Positions 15,710 through 25,430 of a DNA stretch of 64,000 nt are shown here, one piece after another. Source of the DNA: Mycetocola spongiae (GTDB lineage Bacteria > Actinomycetota > Actinomycetes > Actinomycetales > Microbacteriaceae). The stretch covers positions 2,852,001-2,916,000 of the forward strand of contig NZ_CP080203.1 of the NCBI RefSeq assembly GCF_020424085.1, in the 5' to 3' direction. The notes beneath the pieces are model-generated. The model searched no databases, was not told the DNA's origin, and saw only the letters and a list, made by a program, of their open reading frames with translations. The translations under genes and the position numbers were made by a program. The stretch's first letter is position 1. Every line of letters starts with the position of its first letter.

Positions 15710-15871
15710 TTGTGTCGCCTCATTATCTGTAAAACCTGCGCCAAGCCCACATGGGCCGGATGCGGCCAACATATCGAGAGCGCCCTGGCCGGGGTGCCCC
15801 GCTCGGCCCGCTGCGCGGGACATCCGAAGCCGGAACGACGCGGACCCTGGGCGCGGCTCTTCCGCCGCTAA
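15710..15871 (+). CDS. 53-residue Cys/His-rich protein
   Basis: Read from TTG 15710 with AAGGAG (15697-15702) 7 nt upstream. An overlapping GTG at 15712 is in another frame and stops after six codons. The product has Cys at 2, 7, 10, 18 and 35 and His at 21 and 38. The core is CKTCAKPTWAGCGQH, a motif I recognise from small conserved actinobacterial proteins of unknown function. The CxxC and CxxH-like spacings suggest zinc or another soft-metal site. The C-terminus is basic (WARLFRR). Its stop overlaps that of the convergent exported protein. The operator-like palindrome upstream suggests control by a metal- or aldehyde-sensing repressor. Confidence 0.75.
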   Translation: MCRLIICKTCAKPTWAGCGQHIESALAGVPRSARCAGHPKPERRGPWARLFRR

Positions 15872-16407
15872 TTGCCGCAGCGGAACCCGCCCAGCAGGAG
15901 CCCCAGGATGGGCGAAATATAGTAGATGGTGCGGGTTGCGGCCACCGGCGCGCGCCACAGTACCGCGCCCCCCGCATCGCGGAGAACCGGACGCACCTCC
16001 ATGGTGGCCGGCGGATTGGCCGGATTAATCAAAAAATCCAGGATATTGGTGAGCAGGGCCACCTCAAATTTCACCGAGGGGGTCGCCGAATAGAGCCGGG
16101 TATTGCGGGGGCCGAGGGATACCCGGATCTCGTATTCCGCGCCGGCCGGAAGCGATGCGGGGGCGGCCCAGGTCACCACGATCCAGGTGGGCATCAGTAC
16201 CCCATACTGGGTGCAGGCCAGGGGAGAGGTCACGGGCGGGATGGTGGCTGCCCGCAGGATTCCGGCCGCAGTCTCGGAGTCGCGCCACTCGGCGGTGGTG
16301 GCGGAGAACCGCGAGACCAGCCCCGGCGCGGCGAGCACCAGCCCTCCCACCAGAACCAGAGCGAGTAGGCGCGGGCGTCGGCGCGGCCGGGCATGACGTG
16401 CCGTCAC
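15868..16407 (-). CDS. Exported protein with SipW-type N-terminus
   Basis: A 179-residue protein starting GTG 16407 in a GTGA overlap with the SipW gene stop, so it is coupled to it. A basic n-region (ARPRRRPR) precedes a hydrophobic helix, followed by FSATTAEWRDSETAAG. That matches the W-x-D-x-E-x-A-x-G pattern after the signal of the two TasA-like proteins upstream. A second hydrophobic segment (TIYYISPILGLLLGG) is near the C-terminus, with a closing FRCGN and an earlier single Cys that might form a disulfide. It is probably a third client of the adjacent peptidase. Domain identity unknown. Confidence 0.72.
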   Translation of the reverse strand: MTARHARPRRRPRLLALVLVGGLVLAAPGLVSRFSATTAEWRDSETAAGILRAATIPPVTSPLACTQYGVLMPTWIVVTWAAPASLPAGAEYEIRVSLGPRNTRLYSATPSVKFEVALLTNILDFLINPANPPATMEVRPVLRDAGGAVLWRAPVAATRTIYYISPILGLLLGGFRCGN

Positions 16408-17642
16408 GATTGTCCCTCCCCGGCGAGCCGAGCCACGGCGGCCCCCAGCAGAATCACGCCCACGGCCGCGGCGAGAGGCGCCGTGAGATCCGAACCGGCC
16501 CGCGGTAGTGCGCCCAGCCGGGTGCCGGGTGCGGCGATGACCTCGCTCTCACCCCCGTCCTCGCCCATGCCCGCGGCGGAGAGGCGCAGCTCCACGCCGC
16601 CCTCGTGTCCGCCCCGCGGGCCCGGTGCGAGCCAGGCCGAAACGAGGAACCATGCCGGGGTGTGGTCCCGTAGCTCCGCGATCTGCCGGGTGATTCCGTC
16701 CACGCGCGCGGGGCCGGGCTCGCCGATCCGGGTTTCTCCCTCGGCGCAGGTTGTGCCCACCCAGCGCGTGGCGCAGCGGCTGATCGAGGTCATCAGGCCA
16801 AGCGCGTCATCGCCCGTGGCCGATACCGAGATCTCCACGGGCGGGAGGATCTGTGCGCTCATCTCGACGCCGACCTGCCAGAGCTCGGTGCGCCCCGGCA
16901 CCATCGTGGACATGAGCGCGGGATCGCCGATCGAGATAAGCGTGAGTGCGCGCCCGCGGATCACCTGTTCCGTGGGCCCGGCGGGGGCGGCCCGGGCCGC
17001 GGGTGCGGGGAGCAGGCCCAGCCCCGCAGCGCACCCGGCGATCAGGACCAGCACAAGAGCCCGACCTGCGGGTGCCGCATGCCGACCGCGCGGGGGCTCT
17101 CCCTCGGCTACCTCCCCACGCCCGCCGCCCCGGGGGCGAGGGGAGGCAGCCCGCGGCCAAAAGGCCCAGGTCACCAGGGCCGTGGCCGCGAGGGTGATGC
17201 CGCCGATCACGGGGGCCTGCCCCAGCCAGACCAGGACCGCGGCGAGCCCCGGAACCGAGGCGAGCATAATGCGGACCGTGCTCACCAGATAGGGCGCCGG
17301 GTCGTCCTGGGCATTGGCATCCCCGCGCATCGTGATGCTGCGCTCGGCCGCGTTGCCGCCCGGGGTGATGCTCGTGACCCGGTGGGTAATCGGCAGTGCC
17401 CCGGCCCGGTCCACCGTGACCACATCGCCCACCGCGATCTCGGAGGCCGGGATCTCCCGCACCACCGCCACCGAGCCCGCGGGAATACCCGGGGACATCG
17501 ACCCCGTCTTGAACATGATCAGGGTGATGTTAAAGAAAAACGCGAGGCCCGCCAGGACGATGCAGATTGCGCCACCCACCGCCGCAATATTCAGCAGAAT
17601 ATTGCCCGCGGTCCCGGCCACGCGTGCGCTCCTGGAGATCAT
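16404..17642 (-). CDS. sipW: SipW-type signal peptidase I fused to an exported, sortase-signal-like domain
   Basis: A 412-residue fusion. Residues about 1-170 are an ER/archaeal-type signal peptidase: a transmembrane helix, then FKTGSMSPGIPAGS with catalytic Ser48, ITHRVTSI with His87 replacing the usual Lys, and RGDANAQDDP. A Pro/Arg/Gly linker (170-195) leads to a second signal-peptide-like helix (RALVLVLIAGCAAGLGLLPAPAARA), an extracellular domain of about 170 residues with two Cys, and a C-terminal LPRAG-hydrophobic-RLAGEGQS tail resembling a degenerate LPxTG sorting signal. ATG 17642 has AAGGAGAAGG upstream. It should process the neighbouring TasA-like proteins. In relatives I believe the two halves are separate genes. 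Confidence 0.82.
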   Translation of the reverse strand: MISRSARVAGTAGNILLNIAAVGGAICIVLAGLAFFFNITLIMFKTGSMSPGIPAGSVAVVREIPASEIAVGDVVTVDRAGALPITHRVTSITPGGNAAERSITMRGDANAQDDPAPYLVSTVRIMLASVPGLAAVLVWLGQAPVIGGITLAATALVTWAFWPRAASPRPRGGGRGEVAEGEPPRGRHAAPAGRALVLVLIAGCAAGLGLLPAPAARAAPAGPTEQVIRGRALTLISIGDPALMSTMVPGRTELWQVGVEMSAQILPPVEISVSATGDDALGLMTSISRCATRWVGTTCAEGETRIGEPGPARVDGITRQIAELRDHTPAWFLVSAWLAPGPRGGHEGGVELRLSAAGMGEDGGESEVIAAPGTRLGALPRAGSDLTAPLAAAVGVILLGAAVARLAGEGQS

Positions 17643-17662
17643 ATTTATTCCTTCTCCTTGTA

Positions 17663-18292
17663 CTAGCTGGAGGTGGCATCCACCGACCAGCGACCGCCGA
17701 GGTTGGACCCCTGCGCCTCATTGGGGGCGGTGCTGGGGAGCGTGAACTCAAAGCAATAATTCACGCTCCCGGTCCCGCCCGCGGGCAGCACACTCGTGGC
17801 CGTGCCCCCGGCGGTGAGCGGGGAACCCGCGGCGATCTGCACCGCCGTGGAGGCCGAGTAGCTCGCCGCATCGCAGGCCGGGGTGGGCACGGTTTTTACG
17901 CCATAGCGCAGCCACGCGCCGAGACCCGCGCCGTTTCCGGGGGCCGCCGAGAGCAGGATGGTTCCCGCCACGCTATCGGCGGTGGTGCGCACACTGAACG
18001 CCGCGTAGACCGTGCGTCCCGGGGTGAGCGCGCTGGCCGCCGCCCCGCCGGGCGTGAAGGCCAGCGTGGCGGCCGCCGCATCGCTGGGATGCTCGGCAAA
18101 CGTGCTGCCATCGGTGCTGCCCACGATGCCGAAGGTGCCCGCCCCAAACCTGCCCGCCGCGTTTTCCCGGTCGGTCCAGGCCGCGAGGGTCAGGGCCGAA
18201 CCGACCCCGAGGACCAGGGCCGCCGCGAGAAGCGCCCGCACCCGCAATCGAAACGTTGGGGTGGGCCCCGGTGGGGCCGCGTGCCGCGCCAT
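17663..18292 (-). CDS. TasA/camelysin-like exported protein with SipW-cognate signal (copy A)
   Basis: A 209-residue protein read from ATG 18292. The N-terminus has a basic region, then LLAAALVLGVGSALTLAAWTDRENAAGRFGAG, the signature of SipW-dependent signal regions. The mature part is Ala/Thr/Gly/Ser-rich with little charge and two Cys (PTPACDAAS and NYCFEF), as in fibre-forming or surface proteins. It lies 8 nt downstream of a paralogue and 20 nt upstream of the peptidase gene. By analogy with TasA of Bacillus it may form an extracellular matrix component; function here is inferred. Confidence 0.8.
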   Translation of the reverse strand: MARHAAPPGPTPTFRLRVRALLAAALVLGVGSALTLAAWTDRENAAGRFGAGTFGIVGSTDGSTFAEHPSDAAAATLAFTPGGAAASALTPGRTVYAAFSVRTTADSVAGTILLSAAPGNGAGLGAWLRYGVKTVPTPACDAASYSASTAVQIAAGSPLTAGGTATSVLPAGGTGSVNYCFEFTLPSTAPNEAQGSNLGGRWSVDATSS

Positions 18293-18300
18293 GCCCGGCC

Positions 18301-18978
18301 CTATTTCGACGAGGCGCTGAACTGCCACGTGGCCGTGGTGCTCCCGCCCTGGGCCAGGGAGGGAGCGGCGGTGACCACGATGCATAGCTTGGTGGCGGCG
18401 CCCGCGGTGTGGGTATCGGCACCCTGCGGGAGCGCCACCGCGGCGGAATCTATTCCGGTATCCGTGGCGAGGGTGGGCGCGCCGGCCAGGCGGGTGCCCG
18501 CGGCCACCCCGGTGGCATCGCAGGCGGCGGTTGCCGAGTTCAGCGCATATACGCCATAGCCGAGCCGGGTGGAGTTATCGCCGCCGGTATCCACGGTGGT
18601 GAGGGCCTCGGTGCGCAGCTCGGCCGCGTCGGTGGTGCCGGCGGCCAGGCGCAGCCACAGCGGCGCAAAAACGGTGCTGCCGGGGGAGAGGTTTCCGTTT
18701 ACCGGCAGCGAGAAGGTGAGGGTGGCGGCGGCGTTGCCCGCGGTGGTGTTGTGATCGCTGAACCCCGTGGCGCCATCCGTGGTGGAGCCCTCGAGGTTAA
18801 ACGACCCGGCGGAGAAGAGCCCGCCGGCGAATTCGGAATCGTTCCAGGCGGCGAGGGTGAGGGCGGACCCCAGCCCGAGGACTAGGCCCCCGGCGAGAAT
18901 CGCCCGGACCACCCGGGGGCGGGAGGTATGCGGGGCGGCGGCCTGCGCGGTAATGGGATCGGTAATCTGGCTACTCAT
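18301..18978 (-). CDS. TasA/camelysin-like exported protein with SipW-cognate signal (copy B)
   Basis: A 225-residue paralogue of the downstream gene. It starts at ATG 18978 with GAGGAGAG about 7 nt upstream. The signal region LAGGLVLGLGSALTLAAWNDSEFAGGLFSAGSF shares nearly every position of the SipW-cognate pattern with copy A, and both mature parts end in W-x-F/V-x-A-S/T-S. Two Cys occur late (TAACDAT and TKLCIVV). It is first in a four-gene leftward operon (copy B, copy A, sipW fusion, third exported protein). Likely secreted and processed by the SipW-type peptidase. Confidence 0.82.
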   Translation of the reverse strand: MSSQITDPITAQAAAPHTSRPRVVRAILAGGLVLGLGSALTLAAWNDSEFAGGLFSAGSFNLEGSTTDGATGFSDHNTTAGNAAATLTFSLPVNGNLSPGSTVFAPLWLRLAAGTTDAAELRTEALTTVDTGGDNSTRLGYGVYALNSATAACDATGVAAGTRLAGAPTLATDTGIDSAAVALPQGADTHTAGAATKLCIVVTAAPSLAQGGSTTATWQFSASSK

Positions 18979-19195
18979 GGTGGCTCTCCTCGAAAGATGA
19001 CGTGGTTTCCTTTGGGTGATGCACGAGGGCCGTGTGAGGCCCGATATGTGCATTACCGGCTGGGTGAGCTCGGCCCGGGTGCCTCGCTCTGACGGGGAAA
19101 CCTAGCAGAACGCGGCGGAAATAGGCTGGGGTTTCGGGAGGGCGGAATACGCCCGATTGCGGCGCCGGAAAACCCGGGCGGCTACGATGGGTCGC

Positions 19196-21493: not shown

Positions 21494-21988
21494 ATGGCCA
21501 AAAAGGCGGCTAAACCGGCAGGTACACCGGCGCTCATCGCGCTCGCTCGCGCCGGAATCACCGTGGCCGTGCACGCCTATGACCATGATCCCGCCGAGAC
21601 CAATTTTGGCGAGGAGGCGGCCCGCGAACTCGGGGTGGATCCGGGGCGCGTGTTTAAAACCCTCGTCACGCTGGTGGACGGTACCCCCACCGTGGCCGTG
21701 GTTCCGGTGGCCGGAAGGCTTGACCTCAAGGCGCTGGCGCACGCGGTGGGCGGCAAAAAGGCCGAACTGGCGCCGATGGATCTGGCCGAGCGCAAGACCG
21801 GCTATGTGGCCGGGGGCATCAGCCCGATCGGGCAGAAGACCCGCCTCGCCACGGTGCTGGAGAGCGGGGCCTGGGAGCTGCCCACCATTTTTATCTCGGG
21901 CGGCCGCCGCGGCCTGGATATCGAAATCACCGCCGCGGATCTGGCCGCGGTCACCGGCGCGATCCCGGCGCCCATCGCGCGCGATTAA
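21494..21988 (+). CDS. ybaK: YbaK-type Cys-tRNA(Pro)/aminoacyl-tRNA deacylase
   Basis: A 164-residue free-standing editing domain of the YbaK/ProX superfamily. Visible features are the N-terminal YDHDP segment, RVFKTLVTLVDG with the conserved catalytic-site Lys (about residue 56), KKAELAPMDLAERKTGYVAGGISPIG and a C-terminal FISGGRRGLDIEI. YbaK hydrolyses mis-charged Cys-tRNA(Pro). ATG 21494 has GAGAGGGG upstream. Its promoter region is inside the start of the divergent ABC-F gene, and both act on translation quality. Confidence 0.92.
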   Translation: MAKKAAKPAGTPALIALARAGITVAVHAYDHDPAETNFGEEAARELGVDPGRVFKTLVTLVDGTPTVAVVPVAGRLDLKALAHAVGGKKAELAPMDLAERKTGYVAGGISPIGQKTRLATVLESGAWELPTIFISGGRRGLDIEITAADLAAVTGAIPAPIARD

Positions 21989-22329
21989 TCCCGCGCAATG
22001 GGCGCCCGCGCGTGCAGCCGGGGCCCGCTTCCGGGGAGCCGCGCGGGACGTCCCGGCGGTCCGCGCGGGCCGCGGCGGGCGCTCGTCCGCGCCCGCGATA
22101 ACCCCGCGGTGACCAGCGGTTTGACGCATTCGTGCAGCGCTCAGATGGCCCCTGATCGGCCATTTTGCTAGGGTAGAGGGTATTGCAGGAAGACCCGATG
22201 CCGCAATGTATGTCGGCTAGGGAGTGTTCCTAGCGTCGTTTCGCATTGCGTGAGCGGTGGTTTTTCTGCCCGGTGAAATCGCTTCACCGAGCCATATGAA
22301 CCACAGGCCAAGAGGCCGGAGAGGATGCT
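21989..22329 (+). promoter_or_regulatory. Intergenic region with a structured 5' leader for tmm
   Basis: This 341-nt gap contains a GC-rich tail after ybaK (21989-22110), a -10-like TAGGGT at 22169-22174, then about 150 nt with nested inverted repeats. CGCAATG (22202-22208) pairs with CATTGCG (22244-22250) and encloses GCTAGG/CCTAGC (22216-22221/22229-22234). CGGTGAA (22271-22277) pairs with TTCACCG (22283-22289). GGCC-AAGA-GGCC is at 22306-22317. ACCACAG (22300-22306) pairs with CTGTGGT (22328-22334), which contains the GTG start codon and flanks the ribosome site GGAGAGG (22318-22324). The layout is that of a translation-controlling RNA. I do not recognise it as a known class. Confidence 0.5.
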
Positions 22330-23793
22330 GTGGTAGAACGCATTGCAATTATCGGAGCCGGACCCAGCGGGATGGCACAGCTGCGAGCCTTTGAGGCCGC
22401 CCGGGCGCGCGGGGCCGTCATTCCCGACATCGTGTGTTTTGAAAAGCAGGCCGACTGGGGTGGCCAGTGGAACTACTCCTGGCGCACCGGAATCGACGAT
22501 CACGGCGAGCCCGTGCACTCCAGCATGTACCGCAACCTGTGGTCCAATGGCCCCAAGGAGGCCCTGGAATTCGCCGACTATAGCTTTGATGAGCATTTTG
22601 GCCGCCCCATCTCCTCCTATCCGCCGCGCGCCGTGCTGTGGGACTATATCGCCGGGCGCGTGGAAAAATCCGATGTCCGTAAATATGTGCGCTTTAGCAC
22701 CGTGGCGCGCTGGGTCGAGGAAACCGAGGATGGTTTTTTCCTCACGTCCCAGGATCTGATCGCGGGCACCACCGTGCGCGAGCACTTTGATAAGATCATC
22801 GTCGCCTCGGGGCATTTCTCCTTCCCCAATGTGCCCGAGTTTGAGGGCATTCATACCTTCCCCGGCACGATCTCCCACGCCCATGATTTCCGCGGCGCGG
22901 AAAACCTCGACGGGCGCGATGTGCTGCTGATCGGCGCGAGCTATTCCGCCGAGGACATCGGCATGCAGGCCTATAAGATGGGCGCCTCCTCGGTCACGCT
23001 GAGCTATCGCAGCCACCCGATGGGCTTTGACTGGCCCGAGGGCGTGGAGGAGCTTCCGCTCCTCACGCGCTTTGACGGCGAAAACGTGCTCTTCAGCGAT
23101 GGCTCAACCCGGCGCTTTGACGCGGTGGTGCTGTGCACCGGCTATCTGCATAAATATCCGTATCTGCCCACCGCGCTCGCCCTGGATTCCCCCAATAATC
23201 TCTATCCCGCGGGGCTATATAAGGGTGCCGTCTGGCAGAATAACCCGAATATTTTTTATGTGGGGGCGCAGGACCAGTGGTTCACGTTTAACATGTTTGA
23301 CGCGCAGGCCTGGTATGTGCGCGATGTGATCCTGGGGCGCGTGAGCCTGCCCGGGGAGGCCGAGCGAGCCGCGGATATCGCCGATTGGCAGGCCCGCTAT
23401 GCCGCGCTGCCCGATCACGATTCCGAGGTGGTTTTCCAGGCCGACTATATTCGCGACCTGATCGAGCGCACCGATTATCCGCTCTTTGACCTGGACGAGG
23501 TGGTGCGGATCTTCCTCGCCTGGCAGCGCGATAAGCACGTCAACATCGCCTCCTATCGCGACCAGACCTATCGTTCGGTGATGACCGGCACCATGGCCTC
23601 GCGGCATCACACGCCGTGGCTGGATGAGCTCGACGATAGCCTCGAACGCTATCTGGCCCCGCCCGCGAGCGCGCGCGGAACCCATCCGCGCTCCGTTTCC
23701 GGCAGCGCCGGGAGCAGCGAACGGGTGCGCGAGCGCGGCGTACCCGCCCGCGGAACCCTGCCTACCCGCCCCGCCTCGGCTCCTCGCAGCTAG
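22330..23793 (+). CDS. tmm: Trimethylamine monooxygenase (flavin-containing)
   Basis: A 487-residue flavin monooxygenase. It has the FAD motif GAGPSGMAQL (about residues 9-18), a second Rossmann motif LIGASYSAEDIG (NADPH) near 200, the FMO-type region GHFSFPNVPEFEG, and the long conserved blocks CFEKQADWGGQWNYSWRTG, SSMYRNLWSNGPKE and RSVMTGTMASRHHTPW that I recognise from bacterial Tmm. It oxidises trimethylamine to its N-oxide using NADPH and O2, and may also take dimethylsulfide. The C-terminus carries about 45 extra Ser/Arg/Pro/Ala-rich residues. GTG start with GGAGAGG 5 nt upstream, inside a predicted stem. No TMAO demethylase is nearby. Confidence 0.9.
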   Translation: MVERIAIIGAGPSGMAQLRAFEAARARGAVIPDIVCFEKQADWGGQWNYSWRTGIDDHGEPVHSSMYRNLWSNGPKEALEFADYSFDEHFGRPISSYPPRAVLWDYIAGRVEKSDVRKYVRFSTVARWVEETEDGFFLTSQDLIAGTTVREHFDKIIVASGHFSFPNVPEFEGIHTFPGTISHAHDFRGAENLDGRDVLLIGASYSAEDIGMQAYKMGASSVTLSYRSHPMGFDWPEGVEELPLLTRFDGENVLFSDGSTRRFDAVVLCTGYLHKYPYLPTALALDSPNNLYPAGLYKGAVWQNNPNIFYVGAQDQWFTFNMFDAQAWYVRDVILGRVSLPGEAERAADIADWQARYAALPDHDSEVVFQADYIRDLIERTDYPLFDLDEVVRIFLAWQRDKHVNIASYRDQTYRSVMTGTMASRHHTPWLDELDDSLERYLAPPASARGTHPRSVSGSAGSSERVRERGVPARGTLPTRPASAPRS

Positions 23794-23841: not shown

Positions 23842-24579
23842 ATGACACAGACCAAAAAACGCTATGGACTGAGCACGCTTTTGCTCACGGCAATCACGGC
23901 CGCCGCGGCCGGTGCCGTGGTCACGGCCGTGGTGATCGCCTCCCTGACCCCGGCCACCGAGGCCCCGGTTGCCGGGCCCACCGCGGGCGCCACCCCGGGG
24001 GCGACCACGGCCGCACCCGCGCCGCAGGTGCCCGATCTGGCCCGCCGCGTGCAGGGCGACCCGCTGGCCATCGGCAGCGTGGATGCCCCCGTGGTCATGA
24101 TCGAGTACTCGGATTATCGCTGCCCGTATTGCAGCCTATTCTCGCGGGATATCCTGCCCACGCTGATCGATACCTATGTGGCCGATGGCACGCTGCGCAT
24201 CGAGTGGCGCGATCTGCCGATCTTCGGGGAGCAGTCCGAGGCCGCCGCGATGGCGGGCCGGGCCGCGGGCGAACAGGGGAAGTTCTGGGAGTATCAGCAC
24301 GCGCTGCACGCCGAGGCACCCGAGCGTGGCCACCCCGATCTGCCGCGCGAGAAGCTGATCGCGCTCGCGAGCGCCGCGGGGGTTCCCGATCTGGCGGCAT
24401 TTGAGACCGCAATGGATAATCCCGCGCACGCCCAGGCCATTGGCGCGGATGTGCGCGAGGCGCAGTCGCTGGGGATCACCGGTACCCCGGCATTCCTGAT
24501 CGGCGGCGAGGCGATGAGCGGAATGCAGCCGATGGAAATCTTCCAGGCCGCCATCGAGAGGCAGGCGGCGCGCCCGTGA
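23842..24579 (+). CDS. Membrane-anchored DsbA-family thiol oxidoreductase
   Basis: A 245-residue protein with an N-terminal transmembrane anchor (about residues 12-35), an Ala/Pro/Thr-rich extracytoplasmic linker and a DsbA-type thioredoxin fold. The active site is RCPYCSLF near residue 94 and the cis-Pro segment is GITGTPAFLIGG. It should form or rearrange disulfides in exported proteins. Its stop overlaps the CcdA-like gene (GTGA), so the two form an extracytoplasmic thiol-redox pair. Nearby exported proteins with paired Cys are potential clients, but this is inference. Confidence 0.9.
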   Translation: MTQTKKRYGLSTLLLTAITAAAAGAVVTAVVIASLTPATEAPVAGPTAGATPGATTAAPAPQVPDLARRVQGDPLAIGSVDAPVVMIEYSDYRCPYCSLFSRDILPTLIDTYVADGTLRIEWRDLPIFGEQSEAAAMAGRAAGEQGKFWEYQHALHAEAPERGHPDLPREKLIALASAAGVPDLAAFETAMDNPAHAQAIGADVREAQSLGITGTPAFLIGGEAMSGMQPMEIFQAAIERQAARP

Positions 24580-25430
24580 GCATCGGCCTCGCCGGGGCCT
24601 TCCTCGGGGGAATGCTGGCGCTGCTGAGCCCGTGTTCGGTGATGCTGCTGCCCTCGTTTTTTGCCTATGCGTTCTCCTCGCGCACGCAGCTTTTTGCGCG
24701 CACCCTGATCTTTTTTCTGGGCCTGATCACGGCCCTGGTTCCGGTGGGGATCTTCGCCGGGAGTCTCGGTGCGCTGGTCATGGATCACCGCGCAGTGATC
24801 GTGGGGATCGCCGCGATCCTGATCATTCTTTTTGGGGTGGCCCAGCTCTCGGGTATGCGGCTGCGCCTGCCGAGCCTGCGCCAGCGCGAGGGCACGGGGG
24901 TGCTCTCGGTATATATCCTGGGCATCGCATTTGGTGTGGCCGGCACGTGTTCGGGGCCCGTGCTGGGCGCGATCCTGACCGTCGCGGCGCTCGGCGGGAA
25001 CGCCGCCTATGGTGGGCTGCTGCTCGCCGTATATGCCGCCGGGATGGCCGTGCCGATGTTTATCCTGGCGCTGCTCTGGGACGGCCTGGACCTGGGCCGC
25101 AGCCGCTGGTTGCGGCCGCGTCCCGTGGTGATTGGGCGCTGGAAAACCACCGTGCTGGAGCTGGTCTCCGGGGTCTTGATGATCGGGATCGGTGTGCTGA
25201 TGCTGCTCACCGAGGGCACCGCGGGCCTGGGAGGGATGCTCACCATCACGCAGCAATTTGCCGCGGAACAGTGGGCCTCGCGCGCGGGATCGCGCGTGGG
25301 CGACCTCGCGTTCCTGGCGCTTGCCGTGCTGGTGATTGGGCTGGTGATCGCGTGGCGAATCGTGATTCGCCGCGGCCGAGCCGAGGCCCGCGCCGAGGCC
25401 CGCGCCGAGGCCCAGGACGCCGCCAACTAG
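24576..25430 (+). CDS. ccdA: CcdA/DsbD-like transmembrane thiol-reductant protein
   Basis: A 284-residue membrane protein with six or more hydrophobic segments. It has FLGGMLALLSPCSVMLLPSFFAY in helix 1 and FGVAGTCSGPVLGAIL in helix 4, the paired Cys-containing helices that carry electrons across the membrane. It moves reducing power from cytoplasmic thioredoxin to extracytoplasmic partners. GTG start at 24576, four-base overlap with the DsbA-like gene. The C-terminus is a low-complexity Arg/Ala/Glu repeat (RAEARAEARAEAQ). No cytochrome-c maturation genes are visible, so the DsbA-like neighbour is the likely partner. Confidence 0.88.
   Translation: MSIGLAGAFLGGMLALLSPCSVMLLPSFFAYAFSSRTQLFARTLIFFLGLITALVPVGIFAGSLGALVMDHRAVIVGIAAILIILFGVAQLSGMRLRLPSLRQREGTGVLSVYILGIAFGVAGTCSGPVLGAILTVAALGGNAAYGGLLLAVYAAGMAVPMFILALLWDGLDLGRSRWLRPRPVVIGRWKTTVLELVSGVLMIGIGVLMLLTEGTAGLGGMLTITQQFAAEQWASRAGSRVGDLAFLALAVLVIGLVIAWRIVIRRGRAEARAEARAEAQDAAN

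Follow-up and report, generated by a model that had tools for sequence, protein, structure and literature searches.

The trimethylamine monooxygenase gene (tmm) of Mycetocola spongiae, which begins with GTG and occupies positions 22330-23793 on the plus strand of the window (the whole 64,000-nucleotide stretch of DNA analysed here), is preceded by what we consider, at somewhat better than even chances, to be a conserved folded RNA that controls translation in cis, most likely as a riboswitch responding to a small molecule. By determining the bacterial conversion of trimethylamine to its N-oxide, tmm is relevant to marine, soil, and host environments. The protein encoded in the window scored 733 bits against the NCBIfam equivalog model NF058570 (cut-off 675) and contains an FMO-like Pfam domain. 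In the arrangement we propose, the 5′ domain of the leader would be made up of an arm of three helices (P1-P2-P3) and a separate hairpin (P4), and a short linker would connect this domain to a further hairpin (P5) placed directly against the Shine-Dalgarno sequence. Forming or breaking P1 would then change the pairing of the linker, the Shine-Dalgarno sequence, and the GTG region, and this altered pairing would set the output of Tmm, with the signal most likely being a small molecule tied to the Tmm reaction. It is the position of the leader at the Shine-Dalgarno sequence and start codon that points to translation as the controlled step. As a defined RNA with mutable covarying helices, for which the candidate ligands are few, the tmm leader is directly testable.

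When folded computationally, the segment at 22180-22334 gave an energy of −64.5 kcal/mol, as compared with −50.0 kcal/mol (sd 3.9) for shuffled sequences (z = −3.75), and none of 200 shuffles was equally stable; for the segment at 22174-22350, the z-score was −3.33. All of the inverted repeats quoted in the initial annotation are present in the window, and its picture of a compact structured domain in front of a trimethylamine monooxygenase is borne out both by this better-than-chance fold and by covariation in related leaders. Here, the dominant covarying helix is P1, which had been missed, and in which the 5′ strand GCAGGAAGACC (22185-22195, plus strand, as for all features of the leader) forms 11 bp with the 3′ strand GGTTTTTCTGC (22259-22269). 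Enclosed by P1 is the helix originally called P1 and now P2 (CGCAATG at 22202-22208 with CATTGCG at 22244-22250), of which the five inner pairs on the CAATG side reach 95% pairing in the sister leaders, with three of them changed on both sides, so that this helix is supported in part. The P3 hairpin (GCTAGG/CCTAGC, 22216-22234) is seen in the window, and the sisters are not alignable base by base at this place. Next comes the P4 hairpin (CGGTGAA/TTCACCG, 22271-22289), originally labelled P3, which is indeed a hairpin with a sequence conserved across four Mycetocola genomes, GGTGA/TCACC being invariant in all of them. The linker CATATGAA (22293-22300) aligns with CATGCCGA in the sisters (alignment A4), and the P5 hairpin (GGCC-AAGA-GGCC, 22306-22317), invariant in the sisters, abuts the Shine-Dalgarno sequence GGAGAGG (22318-22324), which reads GGARAGG in the sisters. 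The lowest-energy fold includes P1 and P4 for the window leader and for the sister leader L009, each truncated after P4, while P1 is lacking from the unconstrained fold of the sister leader L010, and is lost from the best fold of the window leader once about 22 nt of coding sequence is added. We also observed that CGCATTGC of P2 (22242-22249) is exactly duplicated at 22339-22346 inside the start of the tmm coding region, which places a potential competitor for the 5′ strand of P2 within the gene; inclusion of the copy alters the predicted leader fold.

For comparison within the genus, we used alignments A2 and A4 of four Mycetocola genomes. Two of the relatives, Mycetocola lacteus and M. saprophilus (L038 and L039), have nearly identical leaders, and so the independent lineages number three, with the window counted as one. 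The inner seven pairs of P1 are kept in all the aligned sequences, and four of these seven have changed on both sides; across the three lineages, one pair runs A-U/U-G/G-C and another G-U/C-G/U-A. Among the shared seven-pair helices of the alignment, P1 has the most pair types, a result equalled in 3 of 3000 column shuffles. Taking P1, P2, P4, and P5 together, 96% of the cells are paired and seven pairs have changed on both sides (0 of 500 shuffles), and shifting the helix partners lowers the pairing to 29-50%, this control being biased as the helices were chosen from these same sequences. Moreover, the covariance model of the leader (R3) has one match in the window (122.6 bits), located solely before tmm, and when it was run on 39 genomes of the genus and its relatives, the four genus genomes each gave a single strong copy, directly before tmm, with nothing better than E 0.007 in the 35 others. 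Thus, two features by which riboswitches are recognised, namely a conserved covarying secondary structure and a consistent association with one gene, are both found for this type of leader. Chance pairing in GC-rich DNA, which the initial annotation had considered the main alternative, would be favoured by the GC-rich leader and by the small number of sequences of the window's type, but it is contradicted by the energy and covariation shuffles and by the independent covarying leaders that precede the same gene elsewhere (below), and we regard it as the least credible of the explanations weighed here.

The extent of the leader was judged from its promoter. An extended −10 element, TGCTAGGGT, lies at 22166-22174, and TGNTANNNT recurs before tmm in related genomes. 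When the actinobacterial tmm leaders were grouped by sequence into types M (the genus of the window), A, B, D, and G, TGNTANNNT was found in 58 of the 59 leaders, against about five expected from mononucleotide shuffles, these leaders being partly non-independent with many from one genus. In 57 of the 59 it lies 135-216 nt 5′ of the conserved tmm start region, and in one it is at −96. The element is mostly missing from the Arthrobacter-like and Corynebacterium/Gordonia-like tmm genes, and is hence not universal. Since the extended −10 sits at 22166-22174, the transcript would start close to 22180, and a leader of roughly 150 nt (22180-22329), agreeing with the fold and the R3 match, is a credible estimate. 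The −10-like TAGGGT and leader of this length described initially are therefore upheld, with the same element at a like distance in related genomes.

How the start region is paired is less uniform. A start-hiding stem of ACCACAG (22300-22306) with CTGTGGT (22328-22334) had been suggested, and this we rejected, as it retains just three of seven pairs in each sister and has a mean pairing probability of 0.01 in the window leader, where GCCATA (22291-22296) instead occupies part of the CTGTGGT partner with a probability of 0.94. The start codon of the window is predicted to be mostly paired through partners other than ACCACAG; L009 has a start-region pairing of its own kind (ACCA..ACAU with AUGU..UGGU, probabilities 0.84-0.91), and the best fold of L010 is without an L009-like pairing there. 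Judging from these models, pairing of the start codon is the general tendency, yet without conservation of any one arrangement. Two alternative pairings can be drawn in the window, that of TTTTTCTG in the P1 3′ strand with CGGAGAGG at the Shine-Dalgarno sequence (noticed by eye) and that of GTGGTT (22257-22262) with AACCAC (22299-22304), and neither is kept throughout the sisters. In A-type leaders, matched pairing of the H3 loops with the Shine-Dalgarno sequence was not significant (p 0.10-0.22). Counting against a riboswitch reading are the incomplete conservation of these mutually exclusive pairings among the sisters, the non-significant A-type result, the small number of lineages (three), and the predicted folds that lack P1.

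The same observations can be turned toward other modes of action. Were the folds constitutive, merely protecting the mRNA or presenting the Shine-Dalgarno sequence without regulation, one would expect what is seen in that no conserved switch pairing was found and a hairpin abuts the Shine-Dalgarno sequence in most leader types. In fact, such a hairpin is present in the M, A, D, and G types with stems that vary yet stay complementary (GGCC/GGCC, GGCT/AGCC, and TGGCC/GGCCA), and an automatic count gave 23 of 31 as compared with 0.43 at random positions, figures that serve as a rough guide with some of the Shine-Dalgarno sites mis-placed. A domain of 60-90 nt with covarying long-range helices, however, exceeds the needs of a stabilising hairpin, and we find this explanation improbable. 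Transcription attenuation would draw on a terminator-like site at 22244-22259 followed by TTTTT, or on translation of a short reading frame in the window that runs from an ATG at 22199 to a TAG at 22234 (MPQCMSARECS). In the sisters, the T-run is missing and the reading frame is kept neither in frame nor in content, so that a leader peptide and terminator were rejected as unconserved, and attenuation in either form is very improbable. On balance, we suggest that the tmm leader is probably a riboswitch.

Differently built but likewise covarying leaders precede tmm in other genera. Those of the A-type, from Microbacteriaceae genera g63, g7, g64, g75, and g80 and some Microbacterium (alignment A3), have a hairpin H1 with the loop UUUACCA and an H2-H3 arm with the internal loop AAUAGU/UG, and these unpaired bases are conserved, while the window's type comprises its three lineages. 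Here, 91% of the cells are paired and 26 have changed on both sides (0 of 500 shuffles). The A-type model (R2), when run on 300 genomes of the family, gave eight matches below 1e-9, all of them lying before tmm orthologues at 91-116 nt from the conserved start; as members of the training set, these eight show that there is no other genomic site rather than supplying new copies. The next matches were above 1e-3, and the two inspected (L152 and L153) fall in coding DNA. Among 49 other sources, R2 ranked first a Microbacterium tmm leader from outside the training set (L136, E 0.04). Leaders of the B-type (Microbacterium, Nocardia, Micromonospora, and Streptomyces) form a three-way junction, in which 20 cells have changed on both sides (0 of 500 shuffles). 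Covariation, for which a check had been proposed initially, is seen in the window's type, the A-type, and the B-type. The B-type model (R1) had no matches in 395 genomes of the class, a sample that is uninformative for want of a positive control. At about 120-140 nt before tmm, several of the B-type leaders (L042, L040, L052, L060, L121, and others) have GGUYGA..UCC as a common motif (alignment A1), and in some CATGNCGAA resembles by eye the linker CATATGAA of the window. The D-type leaders, which are Dietzia-like (L043, L058, L059, L049, and L024), are long sequences, very rich in GC and heavily folded, that have CGGUGUYGAGGC in common.

A single model for all tmm leaders was tried and rejected. 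R1 and R2 both miss the window, its leader reaching at best 1.7 bits against R2 with filters off and no match to R1 being seen at E ≤ 5, and R3 matched the A-type leaders L012 and L016 weakly (E 0.005 and 0.12), mostly via the P5 end. The leader types are too unlike to unify, which is atypical for a riboswitch class, and they may represent either one class that has branched or several independent inventions. The same comparative evidence would also fit a structured leader that answers to temperature, to an RNase on which mRNA lifetime depends, or to an RNA-binding protein, be it Tmm or another, and the rapid change of architecture between genera is as compatible with protein binding or mRNA stability as with a riboswitch. 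Against this, the conserved unpaired bases and internal loop of the A-type resemble ligand pockets and no protein linked to tmm presents itself as a candidate, and we regard such governance as rather unlikely. Still more tentative, and in our view rather doubtful, is the broader proposal of a family of riboswitches that would sense trimethylamine, its N-oxide, or some methylated amine or sulfide related to these, and would serve a single enzyme gene through several unlike architectures in different actinobacteria. The tmm leaders may show several RNA solutions to the control of one gene.

The initial statement that the leader is of no known class is in agreement with our searches, as Rfam 15 at gathering cut-offs had no family match for the window or for 20 tmm loci, and relaxed searches gave nothing above chance level in the leader. 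The literature covered, which took in few subscription papers or preprints, describes neither this leader nor a riboswitch that senses trimethylamine or its N-oxide, and the one paper in which both "trimethylamine monooxygenase" and "riboswitch" occur mentions them in passages that have nothing to do with each other. By its sequence, the leader would thus represent a new candidate cis-regulatory RNA outside every described riboswitch class. It is comparable to the yjdF motif (PMC4793209) and the folE motif, now THF-II (PMC6800512), both gene-specific orphan riboswitch candidates, in being a structured leader nearly confined to genes of a single kind, with helices that covary and a ligand that was not known at the outset. 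Unlike these, the tmm leaders have several dissimilar architectures, none of which matches a model in Rfam. SAM-V (PMC6061858), a translational riboswitch with an H-type pseudoknot, is similar in that the putative regulated site of the tmm leader is the Shine-Dalgarno sequence and start codon, whereas the long P1 arm, the separate hairpin, and the Shine-Dalgarno-abutting hairpin set the tmm leader apart, and there was no sequence or model match between them.

With regard to the surroundings of the gene, tmm is present in all four Mycetocola genomes examined, and the encoded proteins share 79-80% identity. In the window, a YbaK-like gene ends at 21988, leaving a gap of about 340 nt 5′ of tmm, and a ybaK-like gene is also upstream of tmm in L009 and L010. 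The genes flanking tmm vary and are unrelated between genomes, which makes the leader the sole shared regulatory feature seen. Located about 50 nt 3′ of tmm, at 23842-25430, are two overlapping genes, one for a DsbA-like thioredoxin and one for a DsbD/CcdA-like membrane protein, a pair that is absent beside tmm in the sister genomes. Elsewhere in the window, on the minus strand at 15868-19053, we noticed by eye a SipW-like signal peptidase gene adjoined by several small genes for secreted proteins.
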